Below, piece after piece: positions 3,857 to 24,361 of a DNA stretch of 64,000 bases. Within the stretch, counting starts at the first letter, position 1, and every line of letters begins with the position of its first letter. The position numbers and the translations under genes are program-made. This DNA comes from Dryococelus australis (taxonomy: Eukaryota; Arthropoda; Insecta; Phasmatodea; Phasmatidae), in the NCBI GenBank assembly GCA_029891345.1, contig CM056997.1, forward strand, positions 212,637,212-212,701,211, given 5' to 3'. The notes beneath the pieces were generated by a model, which was given only the letters and a program-made list of their open reading frames with translations, was not told where the DNA came from and ran no database searches.

Positions 3857-4112
3857 GACCTATGCTCCTTCCAGACATACACTGACAATTTTGTAAAATA
3901 AATGCCAGTAGTTTATATATATATAAAATATGTTCCAATGTGGCCGATGGGGTTACAAACATTCATCTGATGACTGGAACTCAGTCTGCACTGAGGAGCG
4001 ACAGGGTGAGGATGTGCATTTTGTGTCTTGGTATGCATAATTAGCTTCTATACTTGTGAAATTGGTAATTTGCGACATGTAATAATTCAATAAATTAATG
4101 TATATGCGAGTA
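3857..4112 (+). repeat. Repeat A, copy 1 (left of the Polinton-like element)
   Basis: A block of about 255 bases that recurs in the same orientation at 24928-25184. Shared landmarks in order include CACTGACAATTTT, AAAATAAAT, a GACTGGA[AG][CT]TCAGTCTG block, GCGACAGGG, and the closing CGACATGTAATAATTCA. It ends about 40 bases before the left inverted arm of the Polinton-like element. No coding potential or tRNA-type promoter was seen. It may be a dispersed repeat or a piece of a longer unit that also carries PolB. Confidence 0.75.
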
Positions 4113-4153
4113 GTAGGCAAGGGAGTTTCAGATGAAAGGGCATACCATCTTGC

Positions 4154-5370
4154 TGATATCAAATGGTTAAATGGATCGAAAGGGTTAATTAAATTGATTG
4201 AATGATTTTATCAAATTGGAAGTGTTAATCAAATTAAAAGGGTTAAATTTTATGCAAGGGTTAAATTTATTGAAAGGGTTAGATGTATTGAAAAGTTTAA
4301 GTTTTTGTGTGTGTGTTTTTTGCAAGAATGTACTAAGGGCCGATTTTCTACCTTTCTTTTTTTTCGGGTGGAGAATATCTCTGATAGATGTTGTCAATGC
4401 CACGACTGGAACTCGACTGAGGTGTAGCTTGTTGGGGATGGGGTGTATATGTGTGGTGAGTTTTAGGTAATAGTGGCATAAGTATTATTTGGAGGGGATA
4501 TTGCTCATAGATGGAAAATAGACAATTTTTTTGTTAACTAAACAGACAGAGACGTATAATTAACATGTGAGAGAAATAATTTCAGAGTGTTTAAATGAGT
4601 TCTACGTATGAATAAATTACACTAGAGATAATTATAACTCCCTGGTCTCATAAAAAATAAAGTGCAATTACGTGAGTCTCCAGGTTCCCTAAAGAAATTA
4701 GTACATAATGAATATCAATTAAACGTAAAGAGATGATTACATCTGCAATGTGATTTTACTACCCCGAGCTGTATGTTAGAAATATAATTTACACGAGACA
4801 ATTATAATGAACGAACACAACTAAGGGAATAACAAGTGGTAAACGATCACAATTTCATGAGTCTTCAGTATAAAATGAATTATTAACGATCTACAACAGA
4901 TAAAAAATGTCCCTATAAATTAAATGACCATCTTTCTAATCACAAGATATATATAAAACTTCTGAAATGGAATCCACATGTTAAAAGAAAATTTTTAATA
5001 TAGGTCTATTCACTCGGGAGGTCACTGCAGCATTAACTTGGGTATAGGACTTACGTAAACTTATAACCTAAGTTTGATTCTAGGCTGAGGTGAAAAACTA
5101 TGACATTTAAATGAAGATAAAAAAAAGTTAATGAACACAAGTACATGAAAAAGACTAAACATGTAATGAAATCACACAAAGAACTCCCCCAAAACACATC
5201 TGTCTGCCTCGGAGGCTGGTGAATCAGTGAAGCAAGCTTATGTCGAGAACCTGACTATATATACGTGGAGTGTGGTTGAGTGGAAATTTACGAGAAAAAC
5301 TGTGAATACGACTGAATGATCGATAATTTTTTAATGAAAGTTTCACTATTGTAAGAATAATTCATTTTTA
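4154..5370. repeat. Left terminal inverted repeat of the Polinton-like element
   Basis: Reading inward from TGATATCAAATGGTTAA, this arm matches the reverse complement of 24586 down to about 23350. Shared blocks include GTGCAATTACGTGAGTCTCC near 4660, a GGGAATAACAAGTGG-type block near 4825, CCCCCAAAACACATC near 5190 and GAAAGTTTCACTATT near 5340. The outer 150 bases are a degenerate tandem repeat of about 18 bases with the core AAGGGTTAAATT. Divergence between arms is substantial, including several indels. The inner edge is approximate. Confidence 0.8.
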
Positions 5371-5755
5371 ACACAATTTATTTCCATTGAAGTGTAGGGA
5401 CACTCTGATAACTTAATCCCACAAAGCATAATAGTGCAACAATTTATAGAAACGTACTATATGTATATTTTTTAATAACAGATGTACTACAAAAAATTTT
5501 CCATTTAGTCTGTGAAATTCATGGCACTAGTTACCGAAATGACAGTTGAAAATAATTCTTAGTTTCGTCGACTGAACACAGAAATGTAGTTTACATGAAA
5601 GTTATTTTATTCCCGATAAATTAATTGTTCAAATATTAAAATGAGGATCGTGGCTAGCACTCTCCAAAGTCGCTGGCCGACATTGCAAATCGGGGATCTC
5701 GCTACCCCTTAGTCGCATCATGAAGCCAGCTGCACCCGGGGAAGTCGAGAGAGCC
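5371..5755. other. AT-rich stretch inside the Polinton-like element
   Basis: No gene recognised. The last 110 bases rise in GC content and lead into a TATA box. Confidence 0.5.
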
Positions 5756-5790
5756 TATTTATACGTGCATCCTGTACAAGTGTTGTCATT
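5756..5790 (+). promoter_or_regulatory. Core promoter candidate: TATA box plus initiator
   Basis: TATTTATA at 5756-5763 is followed by TCATTA at 5786-5791. The distance from the first T of the TATA box to the A of the initiator is 32 bases, the normal spacing for RNA polymerase II promoters, and TCATT fits the arthropod initiator TCAKTY except in the last base. A GC-richer block with open frames follows. Confidence 0.5.
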
Positions 5791-5796
5791 AAACTA

Positions 5797-6574
5797 AAAT
5801 GCCAGTGGACAGCTAAAACTTTTCATGTCGCTACTCACTTCACGCCCGCCCACCATCCCAACTACTCCGTTTTCCAAACCACGACTTTGTGTGAAAAGAC
5901 AGTTTCTTTTCGAGGTCGTGGAACAACACCCCAGAGCACATCTTCGGCGACCTGCTCCCCTCCCCTCCAATACAGAGTTCATTTTCGGAGGGCTGCCCTT
6001 TCGAAGGCCATGCACCCTGCCATCGATCCAACACTGCAAAAACCTGTTTAGCATCAACCTCCCCTCCTCCACCTAGACAAGCCAAGAATACATTTCTGGA
6101 GGAATGGCCCCTTCCAATTCCGGACTTCGCAAAACCTGCCGCTTCAAGGTCACAGAGTATTTTCGGATGACTTCCTTGTCCACAAAGGGCGCTGCAGAGA
6201 TTCTGCTATCGATTATAGGCCACACACCTCCTCAACATACACCACTCAACAACGTGTTTCCAGAGAGCTGGCTGTTCCACACAGTCCTGGTCCTCCTCAC
6301 TCACCCCAGAGCGCACATTTTCCGAGAAGAGAGGTGCCTTGCGGAGGAATGGTGGTTAATTTCAAGGTCACAGCCAGTATTTTGTGCAAAATGTTATGAA
6401 GGCTCCATCCCTCAGGCAGCAACGGATTTTGAACTGACCTGGGCTAGCTCCTCCTCCGTCTTCTTCCCACAAACTGCTATATTCGGTCGAACACTGAAGC
6501 TTCCTCTATTTTTCGAAATGCAAGAGCCTGGCGTATTCCCGGCAAAATTAAAATTACACGAGTCCCACCAATGA
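5797..6574 (+). other. GC-richer block with two unidentified open frames and an internal repeat
   Basis: Two plus-strand open frames (5825-6076, 83 residues; 6104-6574, 156 residues) lie downstream of the TATA/initiator pair. Neither resembles a family I know; both are rich in Pro, Ser, Phe and Arg. Minus-strand frames of similar length also exist, so coding is not established. Blocks around 5925-6120 and 6300-6385 resemble each other (CCCCAGAGC[AG]CA, GGAGGAATGG, TTCAAGGTCACAG), so the region contains an internal duplication. It could be a decayed element gene or a repeated non-coding transcript. Confidence 0.3.
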
Positions 6575-7350
6575 AACTTTATTTTCCTCATCACTAAGAA
6601 ATACCTTTCCAATAGTCTTTAACACACAATAACTTCAATTAAAATATAAACCGTTTTAAGTAAAATTTTATGTTTAATTCTGTAAAAATGCAAGACTTTT
6701 TAAACTTTACACTGTTTTTCATCAAACTTTTATTCACTTTTCCAGCAAACTTATTAATTTTCATACCAACACAAATATAAGAGTTATTTTCACTTGCTAA
6801 ATTTTAAACATTGAAAGAAAACCAATCTTTTTCAAACACGCATCTTTCGACTTACAAACTCACGTTAAAACAAAATTGCCCAAAAAAAAATGTTTTTACT
6901 CTCAATCCGTTTGAAAATATTTATTCATCTAGTAGAGAAAACATACATACTCCAGGTGTATTAAAAATATTTGTGCGTATTTTACAGGTTGATTTCTCCG
7001 TAACTTTCCCAGCCTATACAATATATACACTATCTACCATAAAATTGTATATATTTACAAATTGTTGTCCCTAGAAAATAAATATCGATGTGATATCATT
7101 GAAATAGGACATATCCAGCTTGAAATGACTGCTAGCAAAGCTGAAATCTATTAAATATCACAATATTTCAACTGACTTTCCAAAAAGGTATAAATTTAAG
7201 CCAATTTAAAGGAAAATGGCAGCCATTTTGAATCCATTTACTATATATGGAGGGATAAATAAATTTTTTCTCAGTGTTAAGTCATTATCTGCCATCCTCA
7301 CTTTGTGTGTATATGTGTGGCTGTGCATTGCATTAGCACTAATGAGACTT
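6575..7350. other. AT-rich stretch, nothing recognised
   Basis: Short open frames at 6811-7074 and 7216-7431 have no recognisable similarity and compositions expected by chance. Confidence 0.5.
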
Positions 7351-7495
7351 AGGTGTCTACTACATCGACAAGTATCTACACCAAGAACAATGCCAGATGT
7401 CTACAACTACAATGACAGGTATCTACTATAACTCGAGACGTCTACAATAATGACAGGACACCACACCGAGAACGACACCAATAGTCTACAACAGC
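7351..7495 (+). repeat. Degenerate tandem repeat, units of 41-44 bases
   Basis: Units start at 7351, 7395, 7436 and 7480, each opening with a variant of A[GA][GA][TC][GA]TCTAC and containing AATGACAGG or a similar block. The last unit is partial. Confidence 0.6.
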
Positions 7496-7658
7496 TTCAA
7501 TACATCATCTAGATCTACAAGGGATTTCATATCTGCATCAGATCGCAACAGGTCAATGCTGTGACAATTGTGATTCTGAATGTCTTGAACTATTCATTGC
7601 AATTTTAGCATATGGGAAGGCTAAAATGTTATTTAGTTTAGACTGGTCCCAACTGTGA

Positions 7659-7952
7659 GTGCTGCTGAAAGAATTTATAATTTATTATACAGGCCGCAAA
7701 ATAAAAATAGTGTATTCATTCCTTGATGAACATTTACAAGCTGATGAGGATTTCGTATCCTATTTGCCATGTGAAGACTGCCCTTATGGCATGCCTGCCT
7801 TTGCTAATGATAAGAACTTCCAACATATGCAGAGGGATTGTATGATGCGAAGACTGGAACAGCTACCTGATGCTAGAATGATTCCTGATATAGTAATGTA
7901 CGACACCAGAGGTGATGAAGTATATTCTGAGGCGAGTACTGTGATGTTATAA
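7659..7952 (+). CDS. Small unknown gene of the Polinton-like interior
   Basis: An open frame of up to 97 codons with no ATG at its start; the frame opens at GTG, so the true 5' end is probably a spliced exon. TTTATTATACAG just before 7691 would serve as an acceptor. The protein has a Cys-x2-Cys pair in PCEDCPYGMPAF, a further Cys in QRDCMMRRL, and an acidic tail (DTRGDEVYSEA). The Cys pair could bind metal or resemble a redox motif, but I recognise no family. It lies just upstream of the EHW gene family and on the same strand, so it may belong to the same gene cluster. Coding status is inferred from length and composition only. Confidence 0.35.
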   Translation: MLLKEFIIYYTGRKIKIVYSFLDEHLQADEDFVSYLPCEDCPYGMPAFANDKNFQHMQRDCMMRRLEQLPDARMIPDIVMYDTRGDEVYSEASTVML

Positions 7953-8258
7953 ATAAAAAATTTATGACAGACTTTTGTACATAGTGTATAAATAAATAAC
8001 ATAAAAATTATTTGCTAAGCACAAGGTTTCGAAAACTACCATGACAACTCCTTTGTAATTAAGTTTCTATTTCTTATGCAACTGATGCAAATTACTCTAA
8101 AGTAATTTCATTGTCAAACGTTATAATACTAACTACTGCCAGGAAAAAAAATTCTGTTTACAACATAAAAGCGAGGCCTTAAGAGAATATTTGTACAAAC
8201 ATCCTACCTATGTGTAGATATATTAATTTTCGAAAAATGGCTTGTTGCAGGTATACCT

Positions 8259-8594
8259 GTGCAAGATTTCGAAGAAAAAAAAATGGAGAAATTCAACCCA
8301 GAGAAGACGTACTCCAATATTTTTCGAGGATACCAGAATGTATGGTTCCTGTCTCTAGATGACATATACTTCCAAACACATATGTGCAACAGAGATGAAC
8401 ATTGGAATTTTGCAAAAAGTTTCGGAGGAAATATGTATACAGAACGAGTGTTGTGTTATGAAGAAGAAGACTGTCCGGTTTATAATATGTGGCCTGACAG
8501 CAAACTGCCCTGTTCTTCTTGGGACTTGTGTTTTAAAATTCGCACAATAGAAATAACCAAAGAACAAGGTGTTCATCAAATAAAAAAAAATTAG
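8259..8594 (+). CDS. EHW-family protein, member 1 (unknown function)
   Basis: An open frame of 111 codons. The central motif THMCNRDEHWNF recurs as HVHVCNNIEHWYY in the open frame at 9417 and as MHMCSGDEHW in the broken member at 8899. Around it the three align over most of their length: an Asn/Asp-Pro-type start (FNPEK), a GYQNVWFL block, the motif, a Gly-rich stretch, a Cys, VYNMWPDSKLP, and a charged tail. His, Cys and Trp in fixed spacing suggest a structural or metal-binding core, but this is inference. The frame can be extended upstream without an ATG to an acceptor-like TTGTTGCAG at about 8250, so the true start may be spliced; the ATG at 8259 is the first in frame. No known family was recognised. 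Confidence 0.5.
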   Translation: MQDFEEKKMEKFNPEKTYSNIFRGYQNVWFLSLDDIYFQTHMCNRDEHWNFAKSFGGNMYTERVLCYEEEDCPVYNMWPDSKLPCSSWDLCFKIRTIEITKEQGVHQIKKN

Positions 8595-8808
8595 TAGAGA
8601 GTTTTACAACAGCCCCACCTTAATCACTGAAACCAGTAATAATAAGGAACACATCAAGAAAATGCAAAGCAATAGCAGACTTCTAATACCACCATGTGGA
8701 ATGTGGGACTGTGAGGTTTGGAACAGTTATCTTTGTGTCTGTAAATTTTATTTAATCAATTTGATGTTGAAGAACTAATCTTACCATAAACTGTAAGAAT
8801 ATCTGACT

Positions 8809-8826
8809 ATATAAAGAGCGAGAGAG

Positions 8827-8875
<49 letters not shown>

Positions 8876-8895
8876 CGTACACCAGAGCTTCAGTT
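8809..8895 (+). promoter_or_regulatory. TATA box and initiator separated by a GA microsatellite
   Basis: TATATAAAG at 8809-8817 is followed by GAGCG, a GA/AAGA dinucleotide tract to about 8872, and TCAGTT at 8890-8895, a perfect arthropod initiator, four bases before the ATG of a broken EHW-family gene. The TATA to initiator distance is 83 bases. The microsatellite of roughly 50 bases accounts for the excess over the 31-33 bases seen at 9380 and 12156. The layout matches 9380-9416 (TATGTAAAG, GAGAGCG, TCAGTC, ATG). Confidence 0.55.
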
Positions 8896-8898
8896 ACG

Positions 8899-9213
8899 AT
8901 GGAGATATTCGACTCATCACTTCATTATGCAAGTGATACTCGAGGATTCAGACAAGTGTAGTTTCAAATTGAAGATGTTGACAGTCCACTACAGATGCAC
9001 ATGTGCAGTGGAGATGAACATTGAAGTTGTTCAATAATCAATCCTGAACATATGCAAGGAGAAGTTGGAGATTGCATTGGACGCAAGTGTGTAGTGTATA
9101 ATTAAACACCTGACACCGATTTGCCTCTTAGTTTAACTGAATTAGAAAGGGACATGGAAGGTGAAGAAATCACTAAATATCCATCATTTAGGAAAATTAA
9201 ATATAAGTTGTGA
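8899..9213 (+). pseudogene. EHW-family protein, member 2 (broken)
   Basis: The plus strand from the ATG at 8899 encodes recognisable pieces of the same family as 8259 and 9417: FDSS near the start, the motif HMCSGDEHW, a GE-type block, and PDTDLP followed by a charged tail. The gene is broken a few times and belongs to the fossil Polinton-like element. Its position between two open members, on the same strand and with the same promoter layout as the third, indicates tandem duplication followed by decay of the middle copy. Confidence 0.55.
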
Positions 9214-9379
9214 AAGGAGTATTACTCTGAACATGTTGTTTGAAGAGAACAATGCAACAACAAGCCACATTTTACATACATCGGTGACCAAGAATTAATT
9301 TATATCTGTGGCATTTGGAATTGTAAAGTTTGGCTTAGCAAGAACTGTTCAAAATGAGAATAAGTGATGTTAAAACAGC

Positions 9380-9416
9380 TATGTAAAGGAGAGCGTGCAG
9401 TATTTAATCATCAGTC
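9380..9416 (+). promoter_or_regulatory. TATA box plus initiator directly before an EHW gene
   Basis: TATGTAAAG starts at 9380 and TCAGTC, a perfect match to TCAKTY, lies at 9411-9416. The A of the initiator is 33 bases after the TATA start. The ATG of the open frame begins at 9417, so the transcript leader would be about four bases. Compact leaders of this kind are unusual for host genes. Confidence 0.6.
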
Positions 9417-9719
9417 ATGGCTAGAATCTTCGACCCTACAGACGTATACAAGTTTCTGCAATTAGGATACAGAAGAGTGTTCTTCACACCATACAATGGT
9501 ATTTTACATGTTCATGTCTGCAACAATATAGAACATTGGTATTACATTTTCGACAACAGTCTCGGCATTCACTTTGGTGAAGAAATAGCATGCAATTATT
9601 GTGCCGTAAGATATCTTCGACCCAACAGTGACTTACCAAGAACTTTAGAAGATTTTATGATTGCCAGTCTTAGCAAGGAGATAGAAGAGGAGCGAGGAAA
9701 TGGAGTAATCACCTACTAA
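9417..9719 (+). CDS. EHW-family protein, member 3 (unknown function)
   Basis: An ATG-started open frame of 100 codons ending in TAA. It begins MARIFDPTDVYKFLQLGYRR, carries HVHVCNNIEHWYYIFDN at about residues 31-47, a GEEIACNYCAVRYLRP block with two Cys near residues 54-68, SDLPRTLEDF, and a charged tail SKEIEEERGNG. It aligns with the frame at 8259 across nearly the whole length at clearly diverged sequence but fixed spacing of H, C, EHW, GE, C and LP. The start is supported by the TATA/initiator pair ending one base upstream. No signal peptide or membrane segment is visible. I do not recognise a known family; it could be a lineage-specific accessory protein of the element. It is the best-supported open gene in the window. 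Confidence 0.6.
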   Translation: MARIFDPTDVYKFLQLGYRRVFFTPYNGILHVHVCNNIEHWYYIFDNSLGIHFGEEIACNYCAVRYLRPNSDLPRTLEDFMIASLSKEIEEERGNGVITY

Positions 9720-10647
9720 CTCATCAGACCACACAAGGGAATCACCATTCGTTGGAAGGATACCTGTGACAGGGACATCCACACCTTATTTTTTAACAAG
9801 GAGGATTAGTTTTCCCGTCTATGTGTAATTTATATGTGTGTGAAGTGACTAATGCAGTATAATGTTCCCAATTAAGTACAAGTATGCATTTTTTTATGAA
9901 AGTTTGTATTCTGTAACTTATAACTTATTATATTCACATTATGTTGTTAAGGAAATATGTGAGTCAAACATTCATTTTAAATGTATGTATTCCTCTCAAG
10001 CTTTCACACTATAAGGTAAACCATATAGTTATGATTCCAATTTTATCTAACTGCAACACTTCTGAATGACTTGTAAACCAGTACAGACCACACACAGTAG
10101 ATTTTAAGTGCAAGCTTAAGGGCGAATGCATTGTAAGATCATACTGTGATGAATAAACATGTTTGAAACCCTTTGTTTATAATACAGACACTGTTTTGCC
10201 CTATCAGTATTTCGAAGAATGTGATAAATTTTTCATGCTTTATATCATTATAGCAAAACATGTTTGGTCACACTTCTCATACTGGGTGTGATTCATCAAA
10301 ATGTTATGGGCATCGAGCAATAAAATTAGCAAGAATAAAATTTAGCCCTAAAACACATTTCAACTTACAAATTTAGAGAAAGAATAAATTCATCAATATA
10401 CATACATTGTTCCTTACTAATTCTTCCCAGTCTAGTGTTAGATTACACAGTAGTAACATAACGTATTTTCATCCTGCAAATCATTACATTAGTGTCAATC
10501 AAGGGAAATCTGTTTTAACTTACACTGTATGTGCAGATTTACAGACTTGCAACCATATTTTCATTTTAAATAATTTATTTTTCTCTAAATGAAAAGAGCC
10601 ACAAATTCATTCAATGCAGTCATAACACGAAATATCCAGTGGTTTAT
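9720..10647. other. AT-rich spacer
   Basis: No gene recognised. GATGAATAAAC near 10150 resembles a polyadenylation signal and could end the transcript of the upstream EHW gene. Confidence 0.4.
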
Positions 10648-10788
10648 ATGACTGCAAACACACCTCTTCCATCTAGTATTGAAGATGTACACTCACATTA
10701 TGTTGAATCATTTCCTGACTTGTTTGAAAACATTGTTTTACATGCCCCTACTTGTAAAGAAATTGTTGTGTACAAACAGACAGATTAA
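10648..10788 (+). CDS. Very small unknown open frame
   Basis: ATG to TAA, 46 codons, beginning MTANTPLPSSIEDVHSHYVE and continuing with balanced hydrophobic and charged residues (FPDLFENIVLH). It lies in the same orientation as the EHW family in very AT-rich DNA. It is too short to be convincing alone and no promoter was seen. Confidence 0.2.
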   Translation: MTANTPLPSSIEDVHSHYVESFPDLFENIVLHAPTCKEIVVYKQTD

Positions 10789-11624
10789 AACCAGGACATA
10801 AGAAATACTCTCTCATTGAAAGCAGAGTTCAAGAAGGGGATCTGGATCCAATTTTAAGAAAAATGTAGGTAAATTTTGTTCAAGTAAGTTGCTAACATTT
10901 TACAGTAATATTGGTTTTTAAAGAAAAATGTTGTATTTATTTCGAATCAACTTGTACTTGATAGTGTTCTACAATTTGTGTTACCCTGTAATTGTTTCAG
11001 AGCAAGTTGTACATTCATTTTTGGAAATACCTTTAAAAAAAACTGTAATGTGTGGGACATCTGATACTTGTTTATATGTTTTAAAATGTTGTAAATAATT
11101 TGAATCATACTATACTTGTTTGGTGTTGTGTGTGATAATGTTTTGAGACATCCTGTAGTTACTTATGTGTTATGAAAAATTACATATTTTATTCTGTTGA
11201 AATAATAATAGTAAAATATATTTGTGTATATTTTGTCAATAAATATGATGTAAAATGAATCATTAGTTTTATAAAACACATTACTCATTAAAAGTATAAT
11301 TGTTTTTCTAAGAAAAATATGTTCTCGACACAGATAATGTGAGAGAAAAGTAATTAAAATGTCATAACACACACATACACATGAAGAGATATATATTCTT
11401 AGATTTACTATAAAAAAATATATGTTGCATTAACAAGAAATACTCGTCTAAAGAAAAATCCAGAGGAAAAAAAATAAAATCAGATAACAAACAAACTATT
11501 AGTTCAGCGAAAAATAGTTTGAAACTAAATATATATTTGAAGTTGTCATCTGGCAAAAAGATGTCTACTGAAAAAAAAAAACAATAATATTTTACAAAAC
11601 ACCTTAAATACTTAAAATAAGTTG
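10789..11624. other. AT-rich stretch, nothing recognised
   Basis: Low-complexity AT-rich DNA; open frames on the minus strand are rich in Phe, Ile and Tyr as expected from composition. Confidence 0.5.
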
Positions 11625-11785
11625 TTAAATGTTGCCAGCCTCAGTAGAGTAACCATTTTATACAAGGAATCTCTGGGTTCGAATCCTGCATTAGCCAGGT
11701 TTGATATAAGCTAGGTTAGAGTCTTGGGTAGGTATGATTCTAATATATAGATTCTGGGTTCGAATCCCGGGTAAGGCATGTTTGA
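11625..11785 (+). repeat. Two tandem tRNA-like units with B boxes
   Basis: GGGTTCGAATCC occurs at 11675 and again at 11756, each preceded by CT and each a perfect RNA polymerase III B box. A CAGCCTCAGTAGAG block near 11637 resembles an A box for the first unit. The second T arm pairs well (CTGGG with CCCGG); the first pairs poorly. Similarity continues after each B box (GTTTGA), so this looks like a duplicated tRNA-derived sequence, either a tRNA pseudogene pair or the head of a dimeric SINE. Neither folds into a convincing functional tRNA. Confidence 0.55.
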
Positions 11786-12155
11786 AACCTTATGATCATA
11801 AAAGGAATAATGAACGAAACACGGAATTTAAAAAATATACAATAGATTGATAATCGTTTGTTCGTGTTATATTGCAAAAAGCCAGAATTGGGATTGAAAT
11901 TGTATGTGTACAAAATCGTTCAATAAGAACATAATTCAAATCTAATGACTTAAAACTGAATAAATGAATGTTTAACATGTTGAATTCTAACATATACATG
12001 CTAAATTTAAAAAAATCGCATTAAATCATTTTAATGCATTAAATATGCCTAAAAATTGGTTTTTGAAAATGTTTCAAATACATCATATGTACGCTTATAC
12101 ATTTCTAGAGCGAATTAAACAATATAAATTTTTTCGGCAAGGGGAAGAGATGGTC
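11786..12155. other. AT-rich spacer
   Basis: Nothing recognised until the TATA box at 12156. Confidence 0.5.
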
Positions 12156-12190
12156 TATAAATAGGAACGCCCACCCACACATCGTCATTT
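12156..12190 (+). promoter_or_regulatory. Core promoter candidate: TATAAATA plus initiator TCATTT
   Basis: TATAAATA at 12156-12163 and TCATTT at 12185-12190 fit the TATA and TCAKTY consensus exactly, with 31 bases from the first T to the initiator A. An ATG opens an 81-codon frame at 12216. The local GC content rises sharply at the TATA box, unlike the flanks. Confidence 0.6.
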
Positions 12191-12215
12191 TCTGCTTTGA
12201 CTTCATTGGGTCAAC

Positions 12216-12461
12216 ATGTCCTACCCTCTTGTGCTCGGACACTCTGTGAACCAGTCCCGATTGTTAGGAGCTGTCTGCCTAACCTCGATTATTCAAGGAC
12301 ACCAGTTGCCCATTCATCAGCCACTACCTCTGCCGGGACATGACGGGACGGGGTTGTGCGGTGAAGGAACACCTCGCTTCCAATTCACAGCTAGCTTGCG
12401 AATTCACCCTCTTGCTGAAGCAGACACACTGGATTCTCGCCTGCCTGCCCGAGCGGGTTAG
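12216..12461 (+). CDS. Unknown small protein downstream of a strong core promoter
   Basis: An 81-codon ATG frame in GC-richer DNA starting 29 bases after the initiator A. The product (MSYPLVLGHSVNQSRLLG onward) is rich in Leu, Pro, His and Gly, without recognisable domain, signal peptide or membrane helix. The promoter is better supported than the protein: the transcript might instead be non-coding or spliced. It sits on the same strand as the EHW genes and PolB inside the Polinton-like element. Confidence 0.35.
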   Translation: MSYPLVLGHSVNQSRLLGAVCLTSIIQGHQLPIHQPLPLPGHDGTGLCGEGTPRFQFTASLRIHPLAEADTLDSRLPARAG

Positions 12462-12589
12462 TGCTCAACCAACCTGACCTTGGGTTTAGGACTCGTTCGA
12501 AGCCTATCAGCTTCGCTACTAGAGTTGAAGTAAATGGATAAAATTTAAAAAATCTGGGTTTTTTTTTATCTTTGTGGAATTTTTTTTGT

Positions 12590-13300
12590 CAAATTTTCGT
12601 AACATTTATCAAAAAATTGTTACATTTGAATTAATTTTCGTAAAATTTATTAAAACATTGTTTCATTTTAATTGTGTTTAATTTTTTAGTAACTTTTACC
12701 ACTTTTTCAGAAAATTTTCTTAAAATCTTTAGAATCGTTAAACTTTTTATCAAATCATTAACACTATTTATGAAATTGTTAAACCTTATCACAAAGTGAA
12801 TGAAATATTCATTAAATCGCAAAAATATTTTTAACACGTCTTTAGAATACTAATGAGCTTTTCTTAAACTCGTTAAACTTTTTAACAGGTCTTTAAAATT
12901 TGAAGAAAATTTTATAAACATTTTATAAAATCATTAAAACTTTTAATAAAAGTGAATGAAATCTTTTAGAAATCGCTGAACTTTTTAACAAGTCGTTAAA
13001 CAATTTTTAACAAATCATTAAAACTTTTATTAAACCAAATGAAATTTTCATAAAATTGTTAAAACTGTTAAACAAGTCTTTAAAATTTGAATGAACTTTC
13101 TTAAAATCATTAAACTTTTATTAAATCATAAAAACTTTTTAATTAATTGTTTACAACTTGAATGAACTTTTAAAATTGTAAAATTTTTTAAAATAATCAT
13201 TACATTTTTTCATGAATCATTTACAACATGAATGGAGATTTCTTAAAACCATTGTCCTTTGAATAAACAGAATAAAATTTTAGAAACTTTTAAACAAGTC
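12590..13300 (+). repeat. Degenerate tandem repeat, about 20-22 bases
   Basis: About thirty diverged units of a motif close to AAATCATTAAACTTTTTAAC, often followed by AAGTCTTTAAAATTTGAATG. Units vary in length. The TTAAA-rich motif recalls the 18-base repeat at the outer tips of the Polinton-like arms, but the G-rich core (AAGGG) is missing here. Confidence 0.65.
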
Positions 13301-14080
13301 TTTAGAATTTGAATGAAAATTACATTAAAATGATTCTGAGTGAGATATATATTATTTTAGAATTTATTAAAGTGTAATTTGCTTGTTAGTGTTAATTAAT
13401 GGTAATTCATATGAGTGTGTATGGAAGGCTGTGAGTGTGGGTGCAGGGGAAAATTAGGTTTCCATTAATTTTTAGGTGGGTTGTTGATGTGTATTTGAGG
13501 GGAAATTTAACATTGTTTTGAAGGAGATACTAAATGACCGCCATTGTCTCGCACTATGGATAGCAGGCCGAAACAATATCTCAAATTCAGGCCTTCTCTA
13601 CACTGTTAAATACTCGTAAATATATTTCAATACCATCTAGAATAAAATACAAAGTACTCAGAGAAAAATTTGTTGGGGGAGGACTGTGTGTGTGTACGTG
13701 TGTGTGTGGGTGAGAGAGAGAGAGAGATATAGTTGAGTAGTATTTTAAGACATTTTATATTTAAAAGTTTAGTTTTAAGAGTGTTTGTTTAGTTAGTATA
13801 ATTAATATCGAGTGTGATCCTCCCTTGGTAAAATATTTAGACATCAATTATTAAATGTATGAAAATCCTTATTAAAATTATTTCGATGGCATAAATGATT
13901 TTTAGGATGTACCATAGAACATATATTTTAAAGGTAAGATACGTATTTTTTTCAGTGAAAAATACATAAATTTTATTTTTACAGTGTACACTAGTTTTGA
14001 TAGTGTACACTACATTAATGGCTTAAGATTCAATATTTTTCAAAAAATCATATTAAGTTTGAAAGTTATTATTACTGGGC
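13301..14080. other. AT-rich spacer with TG/GA microsatellite
   Basis: No gene recognised. A TG tract running into GA dinucleotides lies at about 13685-13728. Confidence 0.5.
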
Positions 14081-14356
14081 TTAACATTTTATGTTGTGTT
14101 GTAAACACAGTCTGCTTGCATTAAAATTTAAAATTTGTGAAAGACAGACAAGGCGAAGCAGGTCCCGGGCTATGGTGAATTGTATAGTGGTTGTACCTGC
14201 TTGAAGGGATCTCATGTTGTGGACTGAAGTCGACGGAGTAGAGTGGCCGGAGGGGAAGTAATGACTCTTCCTCCTGCTGGAGCCCATGTGCGCCCCCAGG
14301 CTCCACGCAATAGCGGGTGAAGGGAAGGTTGTATGGCCGGGTAGGGAAAGGGGAGA

Positions 14357-14809
14357 GTGCCTGAATGGTGGCACGTGATGCGGGTAACGACAGTTTACTG
14401 CACGTCCCTGCAGTCACGAGTTAATCTATTGGATGACGATCTCTACTTAAGTGATTCGAGCACGGATTCACTTACAGAGAGATCGTTTACACCTGAAGGT
14501 CAAAATGTGTCTGCTTCCCCAAAACATGAGAAAGTTGATCTTTTAAATGATGACTTATTTCTATCAGATGCTGAAAATTCGTGTGATTTGGAGAGTGCTC
14601 AATCTGTTTCACAACCGACTTTTGAGTCGAATAGAAATATTTCGCCAAGGGAGCCAGAAAATAGTTCTTTTTCCGATTCCCCAGTCTCAGTGGAGCCTTT
14701 GCCACACCTGACATACGAGCTCATGGCTACTGCATTTGTAGTAGGCAATAGGCTTAACAGTGATGCACGTTTTTATAATTTTTTGATAGGTGTAAGGTCC
14801 CTTTATTAA
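14357..14809 (+). CDS. Unknown acidic protein with a duplicated DDLxLSD motif
   Basis: Open frame of 150 codons. After a start region of doubtful coding value, the acidic part reads VNLLDDDLYLSDSSTDS at about residues 22-38 and VDLLNDDLFLSDAENS at about 56-71. The pattern is a repeated (N/D)LL(D/N)DDL(Y/F)LSD followed by Ser/Asp-rich linkers, typical of disordered interaction or phosphorylation segments. The C-terminal part (LTYELMATAFVVGNRLN) looks foldable. TGCACGTCCCTGCAG just before 14415 could be a splice acceptor, in which case the coding exon begins there. The family is unknown. The GC-rich stretch 14120-14415 before it has open frames on the minus strand too and may be a promoter or leader region. 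Confidence 0.4.
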   Translation: MPEWWHVMRVTTVYCTSLQSRVNLLDDDLYLSDSSTDSLTERSFTPEGQNVSASPKHEKVDLLNDDLFLSDAENSCDLESAQSVSQPTFESNRNISPREPENSSFSDSPVSVEPLPHLTYELMATAFVVGNRLNSDARFYNFLIGVRSLY

Positions 14810-16090
14810 GCTTAATAATGTCATCACCACAACCAGTTAGTGTTTCAGTTACCGTAGCGGGTAAGTACTTGAAAGCCCTCACGGCGGAGGAAGGAGCTAC
14901 GGAAATATTCTATTTTCAGAGCAATGTGCACTCCCTGTCCTACATACATCCGACGTGGGTTTAACTCTTTCAAGTTTACTGGTACGACATTTGAACCATC
15001 TAACTTTCACACCCAGAAGTGTGATGGTACATTATCTGTACCACTGGTTTGCAAGGTCGCTAAGAAGATGCATGATGGTCTACTCTGTGAACCACCTAGC
15101 GGAGCGCTTGCTAGTGTCTCTTCAAGCCACTAACAGATGGTATATGTGTATATTTGAAGTGGCGCACATTCCATGCTTCCTTTTTCATAGCCATGCGACC
15201 AACTAGAGTGTATTCTGCGACAATGAGTGTGTGTAAAGTTAAACAAAGAAGATCTTTTTGTAATTGTTTACACTGTATGGACTGATGGTAAGACTGTGCT
15301 TTTAATACATCTAAACTGTAGTTGAAATATAAACAAAGCAATAAACTATGTAGATTGTGTGTGGTTATCGAACAGTATTAAGAGTGCAAATTATGTACCT
15401 CCATGCATCAACAGTAGTTCACAACGGAATACAACAAAATTCTAAGGAATTGGCAAAAATATGTTTTATGGCAAAATGTATAGTTTATAAAACTACAAAG
15501 CATGGTGGTTATTAAAACTCGAATATCAATTTAAAAATATCTCAATATTAATGTCCAGAACTTGCTAACACCTAATAATTTTTGGAAATTAGTAAGTAGT
15601 AAATAAATGTAAATTGTTTTATAAAAACCACTATATGTGTACATGGTAGTAATTGAAACATAGGTATTTATTTATAAAATGTATCCAAATAAATGTCTGG
15701 AAAATTTATAAAATACCACCTAGGAAAATTTTTGGACCATAATAACAAAAATATCTTCTCTGCGATGCACCCTAGAGAAGGAAACACGCCATTCAAGGCC
15801 CTGGCTTTCGAAACATACACCTTATCTTATAGGGTCGACACAATTGGACCCTGACAACTGGAACTACATATCCAAGGATGGAAGGAACTGGAGTAACCTG
15901 AGAAAACATGCGAGCCCGTTGTAGTGTCCGCAATATTACCCAGATTTGAAAATAATTGTGTGACATGATTTTAATTCATTTTATAAAAAATTGTTCATTT
16001 TCTATGTGCACAAATAAATTACTGACACAAAGTATATTAAAATTTGAATTTTATTTCCTATTAAATGCATACAGCACTGGTGTAGTATGT
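14810..16090. other. Spacer with very short open frames
   Basis: An ATG frame of 48 codons at 14818-14964 (beginning MSSPQPVSVSVTVAGKYLKA) follows the acidic gene by a few bases. Two overlapping frames at 14924-15206 are unidentified. From 15210 on nothing is recognised. Confidence 0.35.
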
Positions 16091-16264
16091 CTCAGGTAAC
16101 AAGGCAAGACTGACATTTCTCTTCGTAGATAAGTATATGCACATAGGATAGCCGAGACCTCGTCTTTTCCAAGAAGCCAGGGCGGATAAGAGGCCACTAC
16201 AATGATAATGCTAGGTATGTTTCTTGGAAGAGAAATGTCATTTTCTTGCCATCTTACCTGAGAT
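16091..16264. repeat. Fold-back inverted repeat (MITE-like), 174 bases
   Basis: CTCAGGTAACAAGGCAAG and the following TGACATTTCTCTT at 16091-16123 are matched in inverted order by AGAAATGTCA, CTTGCC and TTACCTGAG at 16230-16264, leaving a loop of roughly 105 bases. It lies 155 bases before the piggyBac coding remnant and could be a subterminal inverted repeat of that transposon or an independent fold-back element. Confidence 0.7.
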
Positions 16265-16419
16265 ACAAGAAATAGAAGATTACAACATCTGGCGGAATAA
16301 TGTATGGAGTATGTAAAGATATATGATTAGGGTTATTTACATTTATAATGGCATTTGTGAATTGTAACAATTTCAATGCCAGTTAGTTAATTAAAATATG
16401 TAATTTTACAGCTGAAAAA

Positions 16420-18240
16420 ATGAAGCTGCGTTCTCACCAAAACATTAAAGAAGAAGACATCCCATCTGATCTGGATTCAACCGATGAAGATCTTGATGAC
16501 TCAGATGATGATCCAGACTACACTGATTCATCATCTTTAGATAGTGAAAGTGTTTCAAGCATCCACCCTAATCGATTTGACGATATGTTTAGTCCAAGTA
16601 CTTCTTTTCCCATACACAGACACATTGGTACTGTTGGTGTTGCAGGTCCTTCGACAACACAATAATGCCATGTCTAAACAACTACTCTGGGATCTGGTGA
16701 CAACATCGAACCTTCCTAGAAAAAACTATTTGGGGGAAAAGTAATCGACCTACAAACCCAGCAGTGTTTGCATCAAGAAAGGGACCAGCAGTGTGTGTGA
16801 CTGACATAGAAGAACTTACATCAAATCATTTGTTCCAATTTTTCATAACATCAGAAATAGTAGAACTTATAGTCTTTCAGACTAATTTATATGCAGAGAA
16901 AAATTATCAGAAGATAGGCAATGTGTACATACCTACAACAGCAGAAGAAATAAATACATTAGTGGCATAAATATCCTTATGGGTGTAAAACCCCTTCCAA
17001 GCTACAGGGACTATTGGAGTACAGCAAACGATTTCCACGATCGATGATTACATTAGCCAGTTGATGACTGTGAATCGATTTGCTTGGCTTCTGAGAAAGT
17101 TACATCTGAATGACAACAGTGCTTTGTCAAGACCCGGTGATGTGAACTATGATAAACTGTACAAGATTCGACCATTTCTATCCAGAGTTGCTGAGAACTT
17201 TCAGAAAAATTTTGACTCCAGTGAAATCACAACAGTTGACGAATCTATGATTAAATTCAATGGAAGGTCGTCACTGAAGCAATACATGCCGAACAAGCCA
17301 ATAAAGTGTGGATATAAAGTTTGGGTGTTAGCTGACAAATCAGGTTATTTACTGAGGTTTGAAATTTACTCTGGGAAGAAAGGCGGTAATGTGGTGAGGC
17401 AGCTTGGGGAAATAGTTGTTAAAACTTTAGTACATGATATGTGTGGAAGGAATCTCAGAGTATAATTTGACAATTATTTTACTAGCACCTCTCTGCTTTA
17501 AAATTTGAAGGCAAAGCAAATTTATACATGTGAAACTGTAAACCCAACAAGAAAGAATCTGCCTACACTAAAAGAAGTTAAGAACATGAAGTACAAGGAT
17601 TATGACTGGGCTACAAGTGATACTGGACTAAGCATGATGAAGTGGAAAGACAAAAGATCTATTCATTTGCTGTCAAATTTCCATGACCCAGATAATGTGG
17701 TTGAAGTAATGAAAAAATAAAAAGGTGGAACGCAAGTAAAGGTGCCATGTCCCAAAGCACTGGGTCATTACAACAGTCATATGAATTGTGTTGATAAATT
17801 TGATCAAATGAAAGGGACCTATGAAATTGACCAAAAAAGTAAAGAGTGGTGGCACCGAATTTTTTTGGTATTTCATTGATGCCAGTGTCGTAAATGCGAA
17901 CATTTTGCACAAGGAAATGGAACTCCCGCAAGTAAGCCTAAATAACTTTCGCAGGGATATATCAAGAACTTTATTTAGCAGTGCCTTTGTTTCTTCACGA
18001 GCTCAAAAGGAGAGGAAGTGAACCAATGTCGAGGAAATAAAGAAAAATAATCCGCATGTACCCAAAGCAGTCCATTTAGAAGGTTCGGCTCACCAACCAG
18101 AACGATCTACAAGACGAAAATGTGCTAAGTGCAGCAAAAAAACAAGTCAAATTAGAACTAAATTGATCTGTTCAGTGTGCAAAGTGCCTCTCTGTTTGGG
18201 AAAAATCAAATCTTGCTTGCAAGACTACCACAGAGTGTAA
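16420..18240 (+). pseudogene. piggyBac transposase remnant
   Basis: The coding remnant follows the DDE_Tnp_1_7 plan. It starts MKLRSHQNIKEEDIPSDLDS with a long acidic N terminus (16420-16665), then TSNHLFQFFITSEIVELIV (16820-16880), the block VNRFAWLLRKLHLNDN (from 17067), and the first catalytic Asp in TTVDESMIKFNGRSSLKQYMP (17234 on). The second Asp lies in FDNYFTS near 17467 and later acidic residues in NCVDKFDQMKGTY near 17788-17826. The protein ends with a Cys-rich tail (KCAKCSKK, ICSVCKVPLC) and SCLQDYHRV before TAA at 18238. All family landmarks are in order. The frame is broken about five or six times, for example after 16665, 16970 and 17465 and inside 17720-18010, so it is inactive. 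Terminal repeats and TTAA boundaries could not be fixed; a TTAA at 18491-18494 lies next to PolB sequence. Confidence 0.9.
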
Positions 18241-18303
18241 AGGGTGGTTTTGTGTTATTGAACACAATGAAACTATGCATATTCAGGTTATGGTAATTAA
18301 GGG

Positions 18304-18327
18304 TGGTGGTACAAAATATGTACCACC
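18304..18327. other. Short perfect hairpin after the piggyBac gene
   Basis: GGTGGTAC at 18304 pairs with GTACCACC at 18320 around an 8-base AT loop. It lies 64 bases after the piggyBac stop and may be a subterminal site of that transposon. Confidence 0.5.
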
Positions 18328-18495
18328 TCTGCTTATAGAGTAATTTGTTAATATTTATTCATAATAAATATGGAGAGGTGATTTTGTAGTCATTTATGTC
18401 AAGTTTAAGCAATAGAATACATTTTTCGTGTTAAAATAAATTACTGTGCGTGTGTGCAATACTTTAAAAGAAATGTTCTGTGCTTGAAAGTTAAT

Positions 18496-21400
18496 CTATG
18501 ATAATGATATTGTTCCTTGTCTCACAAACACATTTGAGGAGTTTGGTGCACATGGATCTGGCTGGGGTCAACAAATATTGACGTACATGGATGTACATGT
18601 GTCCCAATACTGGCCGTTCACCATCGGTGGTGTGCACACTAAACTACCAAAGTGTATTGCTGATAGGAAAGCTTGTGTCGATGTACATTGTCTGGAGGGA
18701 ATGTGTTGTCACTACGCTGTCATAGCATCTTTGTATCCTGCCACGCAATCTGTCAGTCATTCCTCTTCATATCCAAAACCTCATGAGGTTTGGAATACTG
18801 AAGGTTTGTCGACACCTGTAGTCATACAGGATATTCGTAAGTTAGAGGAGAACAATCCTATTTATATCATTGTCTACTGTGTGGCGGACAAAGACAGCAA
18901 TATATTTGACAAAACTTGCGAAAAAGGTGGGGCTGTAGTACTCATGCTTATTCCTCCTGTATGTCATCACAAACATGTAAATATCTTGGCTATTCGCGCG
19001 AGTGGAAATGCCGCTCATTTGCATTTTATCTGTATTAGAAATTTGTCAAAGCTGGTTGGTAGTCAGCTGAATAAGAGACAACAGAAAAAAATTGTTTGCG
19101 ATCATTGCATCCAGTACTTCCAAAACTGAGGATAAACTCGCAAGTTACACTATTCTTTGCCAGCAACAAAAGGCTGTACATAGTACTTTCCCCACTGGGA
19201 ACAACAAGTACCTGGAATTTAAAGATTACAGCAAACAGCAGAGATTGGGTTTTGTGGCCTATTGTGATGTTGAAAGGTGCCTGAAACCCATGTCCACTTG
19301 CTTGCCTAATGATGAAATGAATAATACAACTATCAACAACCAACATGTTCAATATGCTTGTAGCATTTTGTTTGTCTGTTCATACAATCAAAGTTTATCT
19401 AACTATTTTGAGTTTATGGGTCCTGATTGTATGTACTAATTAGTTGATTAATTAGCTGATCTTACAAAGAGGGTAGCAGGAATCTACAGCTTGATGGTTC
19501 CGATGAAGCCAAAAACCCCTGCTGATGAAGCTATGTTGGCGTCTCCGAAAAGTTGCCACATTTGTAAAGAAAAGCTCGGTGCAGATGATATTGTTGTCGA
19601 TCATGACAATCTGATGGGTGAATTCAGAGGTCGCGCACATAACAAGTGCAACTCGAATTTCAGACTACCCAAAAGAAAACTTGTCGCTGTTTTTCATAAC
19701 CTGCAAAACTATAATGCTCACTTTCTCATAAAGCTATTGGCTGAACGTCACGTACCACAACCTGATGGAACCATGGTAAACAAAACCCAGGTAAAATTTT
19801 AAGTGAATGGAATGACCCTTGAAAAATACAAATGTATTGCCAAACAAATTCCCAATGGGATTGATTTCAATAGAAAGGTGCAATATTTCAAGTTACGATT
19901 TGTTGATTCATTCCAAGTAATGAGCGCACCTCTGGAAACTTTGACAGGTAATTTACTACCTGCGCACTGAGTATCACCCGCTCGATGTTTCCAGACAACA
20001 CCCAATTCGAATTGGCAAAACAGAAGGGAGTTCATCTTGTGACTTTGTTAAGTCACCAGACAGTCTGATGTGCAAGTCACTCCCACCAAAGAACACATTT
20101 CATAATGTGATGAGATGCGAAGGCATTAGCGATGAGGATTATGCTCACGCCCAAGCCGCATGAGATGCGTTCAACTGCATAAACTTGCTGCAGTATGTCA
20201 TTCACTACTTACGTGTGGAAATTTGTTTCCTGGCTGATGTTTAAGAATTTCAGGACTGTATATTTGGCTCATTATGGTATTGACCTCACCATGTACGTCA
20301 CAGGTCCATCTCTTTCGTGGAATGCTTTATTGTCAATGGTGGGTGCGTGGCTAGAGCTGTAGACTGATCTAGACATGTATCTTTTTGTAGAACATGGGGT
20401 TAAGGGTGGCATTACCCAGGTTTCAAAAGGGTGTGCGGAAGTCAACAATATTTACATGGGTGAGGACTACAACCCTATTGTGGCATCGAAATATATATAT
20501 GTTATTTCGACGTCAAAGGGCTGTACAGTCATATGATGCGATCCAAGCTTCCGATTGGCAATTTTGAGTGGGTTGAGGCTGACGTGTTTTCAACATGGGA
20601 TTGTTCAAACACGGTGAATGGTGGTGGCACTGGTTTTTTCGTGGAAGTTGATCTGTCTTTTCCGGAGGAGTGTCATGATACATTATCTGATCTGCCTTTG
20701 GTCACAGAAAATGGCGTACCCCCAAATGGTTCGCATGAGAAACTTGTTTTAACACTCGCGACTTGAAAGTAATATGTTGTTAACGGGGAAACACTGAGGC
20801 AGTACTTGATGTACGGGGCCAAACTTGACTGTGTTTATCGCGTTTTGTGCTTTGAGCAGAGGCTTGGATTGCTCCGTACATCGAGTTAAACATTGAGTAA
20901 TGTACCCAGGCTGCGAACGCATTCGAGAAATCGTCTTTCAAGTTAATGAATAATTCAGTTCATGGAGCTGATAGGACGCCCTACATTCCAGGCAAGACAG
21001 ATTATCGATGAAAATATGGTCCTTATCGAGATTGCAAAGAGTTCTGTTGCATTCAACAAACCTTTGTACACTGGTGTTGCCAATCTTGATCTTTCTAAAT
21101 TAACCCTCTACGAATTTCACTATCAGTATATGAGTACAAAATTTCTTCCACCATCCTTACACCTCCTTCATAGTGATACAGATTCCTTGGTATATTATAT
21201 TGCTTGTGAGGACATCTATAAAGTAATTATCCCAGATTTAAAGGCGCGGTTTGATACATCTAACTGTGCTCTCGATAACCTGCAATGATTCCCTCGCCAG
21301 AATAAAGGCCGTACAGGGGTAATGAAAGATGAATGTGCTAGGCACGTCATCACACACTTTGTGGGTTTACGTCGCAAGCTTTACGCATACATTGTTGGGA

Positions 21401-21655
21401 ATGAACAATGCATATGTAAGGCGAAGGGTGTAAAACCTAACATGTTACAGTCACTCAGGTACGAGGATTATCGAGATTGCATCGAAAATTGCACAAGGGT
21501 TTTGGGGACCCAATGTCAGTTCCGTTCGCGTGCTCATCAAGTCTACACTGAACACGTAACCAAGGTAGTGTTGTAAGGTATGGATGATAAGCGGTACATT
21601 GAGGCAGATGGAATATCAACTTTACATTGGGGACATTACAGAATACCTAAGCAAT
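18496..21655 (+). pseudogene. Fossil protein-primed DNA polymerase B (copy 2)
   Basis: The most complete PolB remnant. Landmarks in order: EEFGAHGSGWGQQIL with the following YWPFTIGG and LPKCIADRKA blocks typical of the N-terminal region of this family, KHVNILAI and NLSKLVGSQL, a Cys pair CHICKE, the exonuclease-type HNLQNYNAHFLIKLL (about 19697-19740), the palm motif-A-like YFDVKGLYSHMM (about 20505), PPNGSHEKL, the catalytic motif C DTDSLVYYI (about 21175-21200), and a C-terminal block MKDECARHVITHFVGL to ISTLHWGHY. The first part of the usual gene, upstream of 18496, was not found; piggyBac lies there. The remnant is interrupted on the order of ten times. It belongs to the Polinton-like element bounded at 4154 and 24586. 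Confidence 0.9.
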
Positions 21656-23349
21656 TTTTTTTTCCTCCCTACAGTAGAGTAAACACCACAATAAATGCAG
21701 TCCACCCATGACCCCACAACTGCCACCACCACCACCACACCGCCGATGACGTCCATCTACCACCACCACCACACTCACCTCCTGTTCCATGACCATCATC
21801 ACAGCCATCTACAAATGTCTACAACTTTTTGCAACATATCATACATCACCATTCAGTACTGCTGTTCCCTGTTTGTTTAAATGTAAAGCTTGTCAAACTA
21901 TAATAACAAGAATACACCTGTCTTCGATACATTTTACAAAATAATAATAAGAAGAAAGTCATATTGTGACAAATCATCTACTGGAAACTGTGTGCGTGTG
22001 AGTGTGTGTTACACGCTGTCGTCGGCGTGTGCAAGTGATTGGAAAATATCCCAGATTTGACAAATGAACGCCCCTCTGTGCGTGTCAACAAACACACCAC
22101 CCGAATGTGTCGCTAATGAAAATAGTAGCTGTAAATAGATAGGAAAAGGATGTCGACCACAACGATGTCTTATATTTGTAAATATTTTGTTAATGTTTTT
22201 GTTTTGTAAATTTTTTTTTTTATCTTTAATCTGTGGAAGACAATTTTGTAATGTTGTAACAGTAGTAGTAGTAATAGTTGTTGTAGTAGTTGTTGTAGTA
22301 GTAGGTTTAAGATGTAAATAACTTTGATGAAATGTTTGATATTTCAAAATATAAAACGTCATTGATAAAATGTCTTGTTTTTGTTCAAATGTATGTGAAA
22401 AATTTGTTTGGTAATAATGTTTGTAACATGATTCTTGTATATTGCATTCACTTGTTATGTTTGTTTTAAAGCATGTCAAAATTTTTAATGTAGATATTAG
22501 TTTAATTTGTAAACAATTGTAATTGAAAATGTCTTTTAGTGTGTTAGTGTTTTATGTAATGTAATTTTCTGTGAACATTGTAAACATTTTAGCTCTTAAC
22601 GATGATTAAAACAAAAATTGAATAAAATTATTATATGTAAAAGTTGAATACTGTCACTTGATATTTATAAGTTAAAAAATTCCCTATGCCATTATATAAC
22701 ATCTCATGAATGATTGGATGTGTCATAAGTTCTTGAATATGACTGCATTCGAATTGTTTAAATATTATTGAGACGAGTAGGTGTTGGTAAGTTGTTTGTT
22801 TGAATTTAATGCCAGGTTATTTGTTTGCTCACTTTCACTATATATATGTACATATATAAGTAGTTTGCTTACAATTTGATGACTGAGAAAAACTAAAATT
22901 TTACGAAAACACACACTGAAGAGCTGAGGAGAACTTACAAAAAATATGTTGGAGAAAATCGAACATGTCTGAATGAATGAATTCGAAAGGAAAGGGAACA
23001 GATTATTATCTCGAGAAAACTTTGCCGGGCCGCTGGTCAAGTTCAAGAACCCTAGGGAATTTAACGAAAATGAGAGTCACACAAAGACCTTTTGTGGGCC
23101 AGGTAGAAAGAGCCCTTAACGTCACATTATAATGTTTCCCGCTGCCCTTCAACTCTACAGCTGGGAGAGTCTGGCTAACTTTAAAATACAAATATTTTTC
23201 TCACAGCAACACGATTACAACTGTGGCAGCTGATGATTCAACACGACGATGTCTGGTGGTGGTAAAAGCACACTCATACTTTATACAAACTCAGAAAATA
23301 AAATTTAAGTTTTTTTTTTAAAGTTAACTCTTTCACAAACATGGATTCT
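21656..23349. other. 3' interior stretch after PolB copy 2
   Basis: CCACCA-rich sequence at 21715-21790 parallels the CAAC/CCACC-rich stretch after PolB copy 1. A GTA/GTT triplet tract lies at 22258-22306. A 156-codon minus-strand frame (22009-22479) reads through that tract as a Thr run and looks like a composition artefact. Nothing else recognised. Confidence 0.5.
22258..22306. repeat. Imperfect GTA/GTT triplet repeat
   Basis: About sixteen AGT/TGT-type triplets in a row with interruptions. Confidence 0.8.
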
Positions 23350-24295
23350 TCTTCTTAAAATAGTGAAACTTTCGTAAAAAAAATTATTATTTCCTCAGAC
23401 GTATTCAGAGTTTTTCTCTCATATTTCAACTCAGGCTCTCGACGTAAGCTCGTTTCATTGATTCACCGGCCTCCGAGGTGGCTGGATGTGTTTTGGGGGA
23501 GCTCCTTGTGCGATTTCATTACGCGTTTAGTCATTTTCATGTACTTGTGTTCGTTAGCCATTTTGTGTTTACATTAAAATTTCCGTGTTTTTTCACCTCA
23601 GTCTAGTATCAAACATAGGCTATATAAGTTGACGTAAGTGCTACATCCAAGTCAGTGCTGAACCGACCTCCCGAGCGAATGGACCTATGTTAAACATTTT
23701 CTTTTAACATGTGTATTCCGTTTAAGTAGTTCCTCACCAGTCTCACAGGCAGACGAACAAGTAATATTGTCAGGTATGTGCGAGGTGCATCAAGTAGTGG
23801 TACATTTATCCAGTGTTTAGTAAGACTGTAGTTTCATTTATAGGGACATTTTTGATTCATTGTATATCTTTAATTAATTCATTTTATACTGGAAACCCAC
23901 GTCATTCTGATCGTTTGCCACTTATTCCCGTAGTTGTGTTCGTTCGTTATACTTCTCTCATGTAAATTATATTTCTAACATAGAGCTTGGGGCAGGAAAA
24001 ACACATTGTAGATGTATTCATCTGTTTACGTTTAATTGATTTTCATTGCGTAATAATTACTTTAGGACACCTGGAGACTCACGTAATTGCACTTGTTTCT
24101 TTATGAGACTAGGGAGTTGTGATTCTCTCTCATGTAATTTATTCATACGTAGAACTCGTTTATACGCTCTGAAATAATTTCTCTCGTGTGTTAACTATAT
24201 GTCTCTATCTGTTTAATTAACAAAAAATCGCCTATCTACCATCTACGAGCAATATCCCTCCTAAAAATACTTATGCCACTCTTGCACAAAACTCA

Positions 24296-24361
<66 letters not shown>

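Follow-up and report, generated by a model that had tools for sequence, protein, structure and literature searches.

A tandem family of small Cys- and His-rich coding units in a decayed Polinton/Maverick-like element of Dryococelus australis

Three small, diverged coding stretches that lie in tandem in a Dryococelus australis contig raise the question of whether they form a gene family belonging to a mobile element, and whether any of them is still in use. The window considered here is the whole 64-kb stretch of DNA that was analysed, and BLASTP/tblastn, shuffle and profile searches of the array were run within it. Accessory genes of invertebrate Polintons are poorly catalogued. The reading to which the evidence points, with a probability of roughly 0.55, is an accessory family that arose by tandem duplication close to the left end of an old Polinton/Maverick element and has been decaying with it. 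The features on which the argument draws are collected in Table 1.

Table 1. Coordinates of the array, its upstream sites and its carrier element, numbered from the first nucleotide of the window.
Feature	Position	Strand	Remarks
Left 6-bp flank TATGCG (putative target-site duplication)	4103..4108		5/6 bases equal to right flank
Polinton/Maverick element	4109..24651		20,543 bp; end motif, inverted repeats, near-matching flanks, PolB inside
Left terminal inverted repeat	4109..5369	+	972/1220 compared positions equal, 23 gap openings
Copy 1, first block	8283..8594	+	103 aa, open, ATG start
Copy 1, second block	8629..8736	+	Frame differs from first block; matches second block of copy 2
TATA-like box with TCAGTT initiator-like site, upstream of copy 2	8808..8895	+	Noticed after looking; putative role
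Copy 2, first block	8899..9204	+	Broken, three stops; tblastn with copy 1
Copy 2, second block	9247..9351	+	Peptide and tblastn match to copy 1 second block
Copy 3, TATGTAA with TCAGTC 31 nt on, directly before ATG	9380..9416	+	Noticed after looking
Copy 3	9417..9719	+	100 aa, open
Possible fourth-copy remnant (Cys to LP region)	10600..10692	+	Profile match, E 0.035
piggyBac-like transposon within element (limits approximate)	16387..18240	+	DDE_Tnp_1_7, E 1.2e-29 at 17061-17462
Broken PolB with endonuclease VII-like stretch	18488..21708	+	Pfam and identity to second PolB
Right terminal inverted repeat	23337..24651	-	Arms about 1.3 kb
Right 6-bp flank TCTGCG (putative target-site duplication)	24652..24657		5/6 bases equal to left flank

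Copies 1 and 3 align by BLASTP with 30/95 identical residues (42.4 bits, E 2e-11), a score reached by none of 5000 residue shuffles. When copy 1 is searched by tblastn against the 64 kb at E up to 1, copy 2 (8899-9201, E 6e-9, 35% over 102 columns) and copy 3 (E 2e-8) are found, and no other place. The back-translated motif, with at most one mismatch allowed, occurs three times in the 64 kb, always within the array, against 0.02 occurrences expected. All three plus-strand copies have the same order of elements, namely F[DN][PS], G[YF], H-[MV]-C-x3-EH(W), a Cys pair, and [SD]-x-LP. Neither the W of EHW nor the distance between the paired Cys residues is constant among them: in the first block, H-x-C-x4-H is accompanied by C-x2-C in copy 3, C-x5-C in copy 1, and C-x4-C in copy 2. 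The BLASTP score, the shuffles and the tblastn matches thus show that the tandem family is real, a small Cys- and His-rich gene being present in three or more related copies, and uphold the diverged plus-strand copies with fixed motif order that a preliminary description had reported. The family is detectable in protein and hardly in DNA, where the pairwise scores are 35 for copies 1 and 2, 30 for copies 1 and 3, and 22 for copies 2 and 3, and the respective maxima over 500 shuffles are 32, 31, and 42. The first protein had been taken to start at 8259; because that codon is a GTG of the bacterial table (ORF 8259-8594), the eukaryotic start of copy 1 is placed at ATG 8283, to which the ATG at 8899 in copy 2 and that at 9417 in copy 3 correspond in the alignment.

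The repeated unit appears to be longer than the first block described earlier. A second block, C-G-[MI]-W-[DN]-C-[EK]-V-W-x5-C, follows copies 1 and 2 (peptide comparison E 2e-6, tblastn E 8e-6), with 15/34 residues identical and with codon positions 1, 2, and 3 equal in 17, 23, and 13 of the 34 codons. Both blocks of copy 2 lie in one frame, with two stops between them in addition to the three in its first block, and the second block of copy 1 lies out of frame with the first, just 3' of an A run at 8582-8590. After copy 3 no second block is found by tblastn in the window, and the best other matches to this block in the window have E 0.17 or worse. The simplest reading is that the ancestral gene contained both blocks and that copy 1, which looks truncated, was shortened by a frame change; alternatively, the second block may be the start of the following unit. 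The unit may nevertheless not have been one gene, because the second block is missing after copy 3. The reported pattern of open outer copies around a broken middle one accordingly stands for copies 2 and 3, and for copy 1 it extends over the first block only.

A three-copy profile searched against 3418 peptides of the window gives no further strong match. Its best match outside the three copies, the last array feature in Table 1, contains PV and LP in the order common to the copies, and its pairwise score is equalled by 8/1000 shuffles against copy 3 and 54/1000 against copy 1. A remnant of a fourth copy is possible there, although these values are only suggestive.

The carrier element begins with AGTAGT at 4109 and ends with ACTACT at 24651, the (AGT)2 // (ACT)2 end motif described for vertebrate elements in PMC8097293. 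Its PolB matches Pfam Endonuclease_7 (E 3e-5, above the cut-off) and DNA_pol_B_2 (E 3e-5, 23.5 bits, under the cut-off of 25.8). Stretches resembling endonuclease VII are a feature of Polinton PolBs. A second broken PolB lies at the left end of the window (129-2684) and is part of another Polinton-like copy cut by that end. The PolB of the element has 69% (19124-20959) and 68% (21008-21631) DNA identity to it and is matched by its peptides from 18998 on; the first 510 nt, before 18998, are only tentatively counted as PolB. Of 27 different pieces submitted to Pfam, 24 came from the element, which has 169 open stretches of at least 45 codons over 5.4-23.4 kb; no integrase, ATPase, protease, or capsid gene was recognised among those 24. 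Because no core gene was recognised among these pieces, the name Polinton rests on the ends, the inverted repeats, the flanks, and the broken PolB, and judged by these the element is a near full-length, old, and decayed Polinton/Maverick. The inverted repeats enclose the array (8.28-9.72 kb), which is separate from PolB (18.5-21.7 kb), about 2.9 kb inward of the left repeat and on the same strand as PolB; accessory genes would be expected in such a position close to an element end. Its earlier placement inside a Polinton-like element is thus supported by the end motif, the inverted repeats, and the near-matching 6-bp flanks.

Other observations concern the element, its surroundings, and the remainder of the window. 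Two direct-repeat units, each about 250 bp long and with 80% identity to one another, lie just outside the left end of the element (3853-4101) and about 280 bp beyond the right end (24931-25175), respectively, and might reflect an old tandem duplication of the element with its flank. At 7659-7952 there is a 97-codon open stretch with an AATAAA at 7952 overlapping its stop codon; it has no family match (best PDB E 0.28) and may be the end of another element gene, the overlap being as in compact viral genes. An acidic open stretch of 154 codons at 14345-14809 contains the internal repeat NLLDDDLYLSDS / DLLNDDLFLSDA, and a Pfam search with its 150-codon ORF gave nothing at E up to 1. Far to the right of the element, the ORF list contains a tandemly repeated coding-like unit LELGCRVLRNLVLVNYSAFLM at 53854-54635, and 54001-58000 is probably a satellite array, with G+C values of 0.49 and 0.57 for 2-kb windows, where the surroundings have about 0.35, and with repeated peptides in minus-strand ORFs.

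Sites resembling promoters were noticed upstream of the copies. TATA with TCAGTY forms an arthropod-type core promoter, and the combination of TATRTAA and TCAGTY 28-36 nt apart occurs only at copy 3 when both strands of the window are considered. Copy 2 has TATATAA and TCAGTT 5' of its ATG with a GA microsatellite between them, by which the two sites were apparently spread apart, and copy 1 has CATAAAA upstream and no initiator-like site there. This arrangement suggests that each copy was its own transcription unit; as the sites were noticed only after the fact, they serve as no more than a lead.

The divergence of the copies bears on past selection. When copies 1 and 3 are aligned over 97 codons, 31/97 residues are identical, and codon positions 1, 2, and 3 are equal in 53%, 60%, and 38% of cases, respectively. 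The Nei-Gojobori method gives a dN of 0.68 and a saturated dS of 2.37, and maximum-likelihood estimation gives a dN of 0.75 and a dS of 15.6; because dS is saturated, the dN/dS ratio is given no weight and the codon-position identities are used instead. Since position 3 is the least conserved between the copies, past purifying selection is supported, probably acting while the copies diverged as coding genes, and since they would have diverged while coding, the duplication appears to be older than the decay.

For present use, the main yardstick is the chance that at least two of three copies would be open, calculated from the lesions in the broken PolB of the same element. The lesion map of this PolB, which was read by hand with approximate places for the frame changes and with the stops checked as stop codons, contains 18 lesions (13 stops and 5 frame changes) over 3221 nt. 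For the whole of 18488-21708, 434/2922 windows of 300 nt are lesion-free, and the chance is 0.06 from the windows and 0.09 from a Poisson calculation. For the part from 18998, matched by the second PolB, 121/2412 windows are free, with corresponding chances of 0.007 and 0.05, and for the part from 19137 the values are 87/2273, 0.004, and 0.05; the window-based figure depends on a 213-codon open stretch that is, for the most part, only tentatively assigned to PolB. A clock based on the inverted repeats, with 4000 simulations each, gives a probability of staying open of 0.0225 for copy 3; for copy 1, taken over its first block, it is 0.018. Within the family, no lesion is visible in copy 3 or in the first block of copy 1, and the three first-block lesions all fall in copy 2, a clustering in one copy that has a chance of 0.11. 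All of these values apply to open copies that were chosen for the test because they are open.

The yardsticks, which extend from 0.004 to 0.11, disagree with one another and lean mildly towards the preliminary reading of recent selection or host use, since by some of them, though not by all, the open copies are mildly unusual. Present selection on a copy is possible on this evidence; the stronger claim of recent selection or host use is not sustained by yardsticks that disagree and by a first copy that appears truncated. A history in which the host retained one of the copies, copy 3 in particular, expressing it and keeping it under selection after the element died, for instance for defence against related elements, is considered unlikely. 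It would account for a copy 3 that is open over 100 codons and has a TATA-like box, an initiator-like site, and an ATG in order, and it agrees with the inverted-repeat clock (about 0.02 per open copy) and with the window-based PolB chances of 0.007 for the matched part and 0.004 from 19137. The whole PolB (0.06 to 0.09), the Poisson values on the shorter parts (0.05), and the comparison within the family (0.11) argue the other way, the yardstick is partly hand-read, its window-based form leans on the presumed 213-codon PolB stretch, and the second block is missing after the very copy that would have been kept.

Searches for relatives returned no convincing family match for the array proteins in Pfam, PHROGs, or NCBIfam, and the PDB likewise gave no convincing match, in agreement with the initial description of these small proteins as unknown. 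Weak matches in these four collections (E 0.033 to 2.7) were rejected as short stretches of unlike families. The best PDB match of copy 3 is 3s6p, a chain named 'Capsid protein' (E 0.046, 46 residues); the Cys and His residues of the motif have no like residues opposite them in this alignment, and 3s6p was found neither with copy 1 nor with a two-row profile. A search of phage records with copy 3 found nothing, and no relative of the array was found in IMG/VR or among prokaryotic genomes. The IMG/VR result says little about the array, because two PolB pieces of the same element are also without a match there. Six IMG/VR stretches obtained from motif scans were rejected, their likeness to the family being limited to the motif; their best tblastn match has E 0.024 and lies at a place away from the motif of that stretch.

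These results also bear on two other origins for the blocks. That they are remnants of Polinton core genes, for example of a capsid protein, diverged past recognition, would fit the fact that capsid, ATPase, and integrase are unrecognised elsewhere among the element pieces searched, and the 3s6p match is of the kind such an origin would give. This origin is nonetheless rather improbable, given the weakness of that match over 46 residues with the motif unaligned and its absence from the searches with copy 1 and the profile, units of only about 100-150 codons, and a duplication that would be older than the decay, the copies having diverged while coding; Polintons are also not known for tandem paralogues of core genes. 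Acquisition of a cellular gene from the host would be in keeping with the diverse accessory genes that Polintons carry beside their core modules (PMC8097293), and is very doubtful in view of the searches, in which neither Pfam nor the PDB gave a convincing match to a cellular family.

The nature of the encoded protein can be considered from its conserved residues. In the first block H-x-C-x4-H and C-x(2-5)-C, and in the second the Cys/Trp pattern, suggest a small protein stabilised by zinc, with a general likeness to small zinc-binding viral proteins. No zinc-finger family in Pfam matches the array proteins at E up to 1. The BIR domain of inhibitor-of-apoptosis proteins has in common with the array the occurrence of Cys, His, and Trp within a short stretch, but the order and spacing of Cys, EH, and W differ from those of the array motif, and no BIR family is among the Pfam matches with E up to 1. 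Modelled with AlphaFold2, copies 3 and 1 both consist of a helix, four strands, and a helix, with mean pLDDT values of 47.4 and 37.5, respectively, a confidence too poor to support a zinc fold. An intracellular location would be expected because no signal-peptide-like stretch is seen by eye at the N-termini.

The closest known counterparts are the accessory genes of vertebrate Mavericks (PMC8097293), which resemble the array in being small ORFs outside PolB and near an element end. The carriers also resemble the present element, whose 6-bp flanks nearly match, in having long inverted repeats that end in (AGT)2. The comparison is one of position and ends, and the array differs in being a tandem arrangement of one family; moreover, the carrier here is decayed and without a recognised capsid or integrase in the pieces searched.

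The most likely identity of the array is thus an accessory family of a Polinton, coding for small intracellular proteins that probably bind zinc. In the course of events that this reading implies, the unit would originally have been one small gene with two conserved blocks, the first with H-x-C-x4-H and C-x(2-5)-C and the second with C-G-x-W-x-C-x-V-W-x5-C, together forming a product held by zinc. Each unit would probably have had its own TATA-plus-initiator promoter and given rise to a separate transcript. The product would have been intracellular, with the host cell and not the particle as its place of action; a host-directed role might be expected because an accessory gene near the end of the element has been duplicated in tandem. 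The duplication would then have given rise to diverging paralogues that decayed along with the element, and a present function would be absent. A more elaborate proposal, in which an undescribed, fast-evolving, two-block Cys/His family forms a tandem array in one lineage of invertebrate Polintons with separate promoters, acts against host defence, and has a copy 3 that is still expressed by the host, is most improbable.

The two blocks and the three paralogues provide a profile with which animal genomes and DNA viruses can be searched, and the delimited element provides a place in which to set the family. Expression of copy 3, if it occurs, would make it an example of a virus-like gene taken into use by the host.
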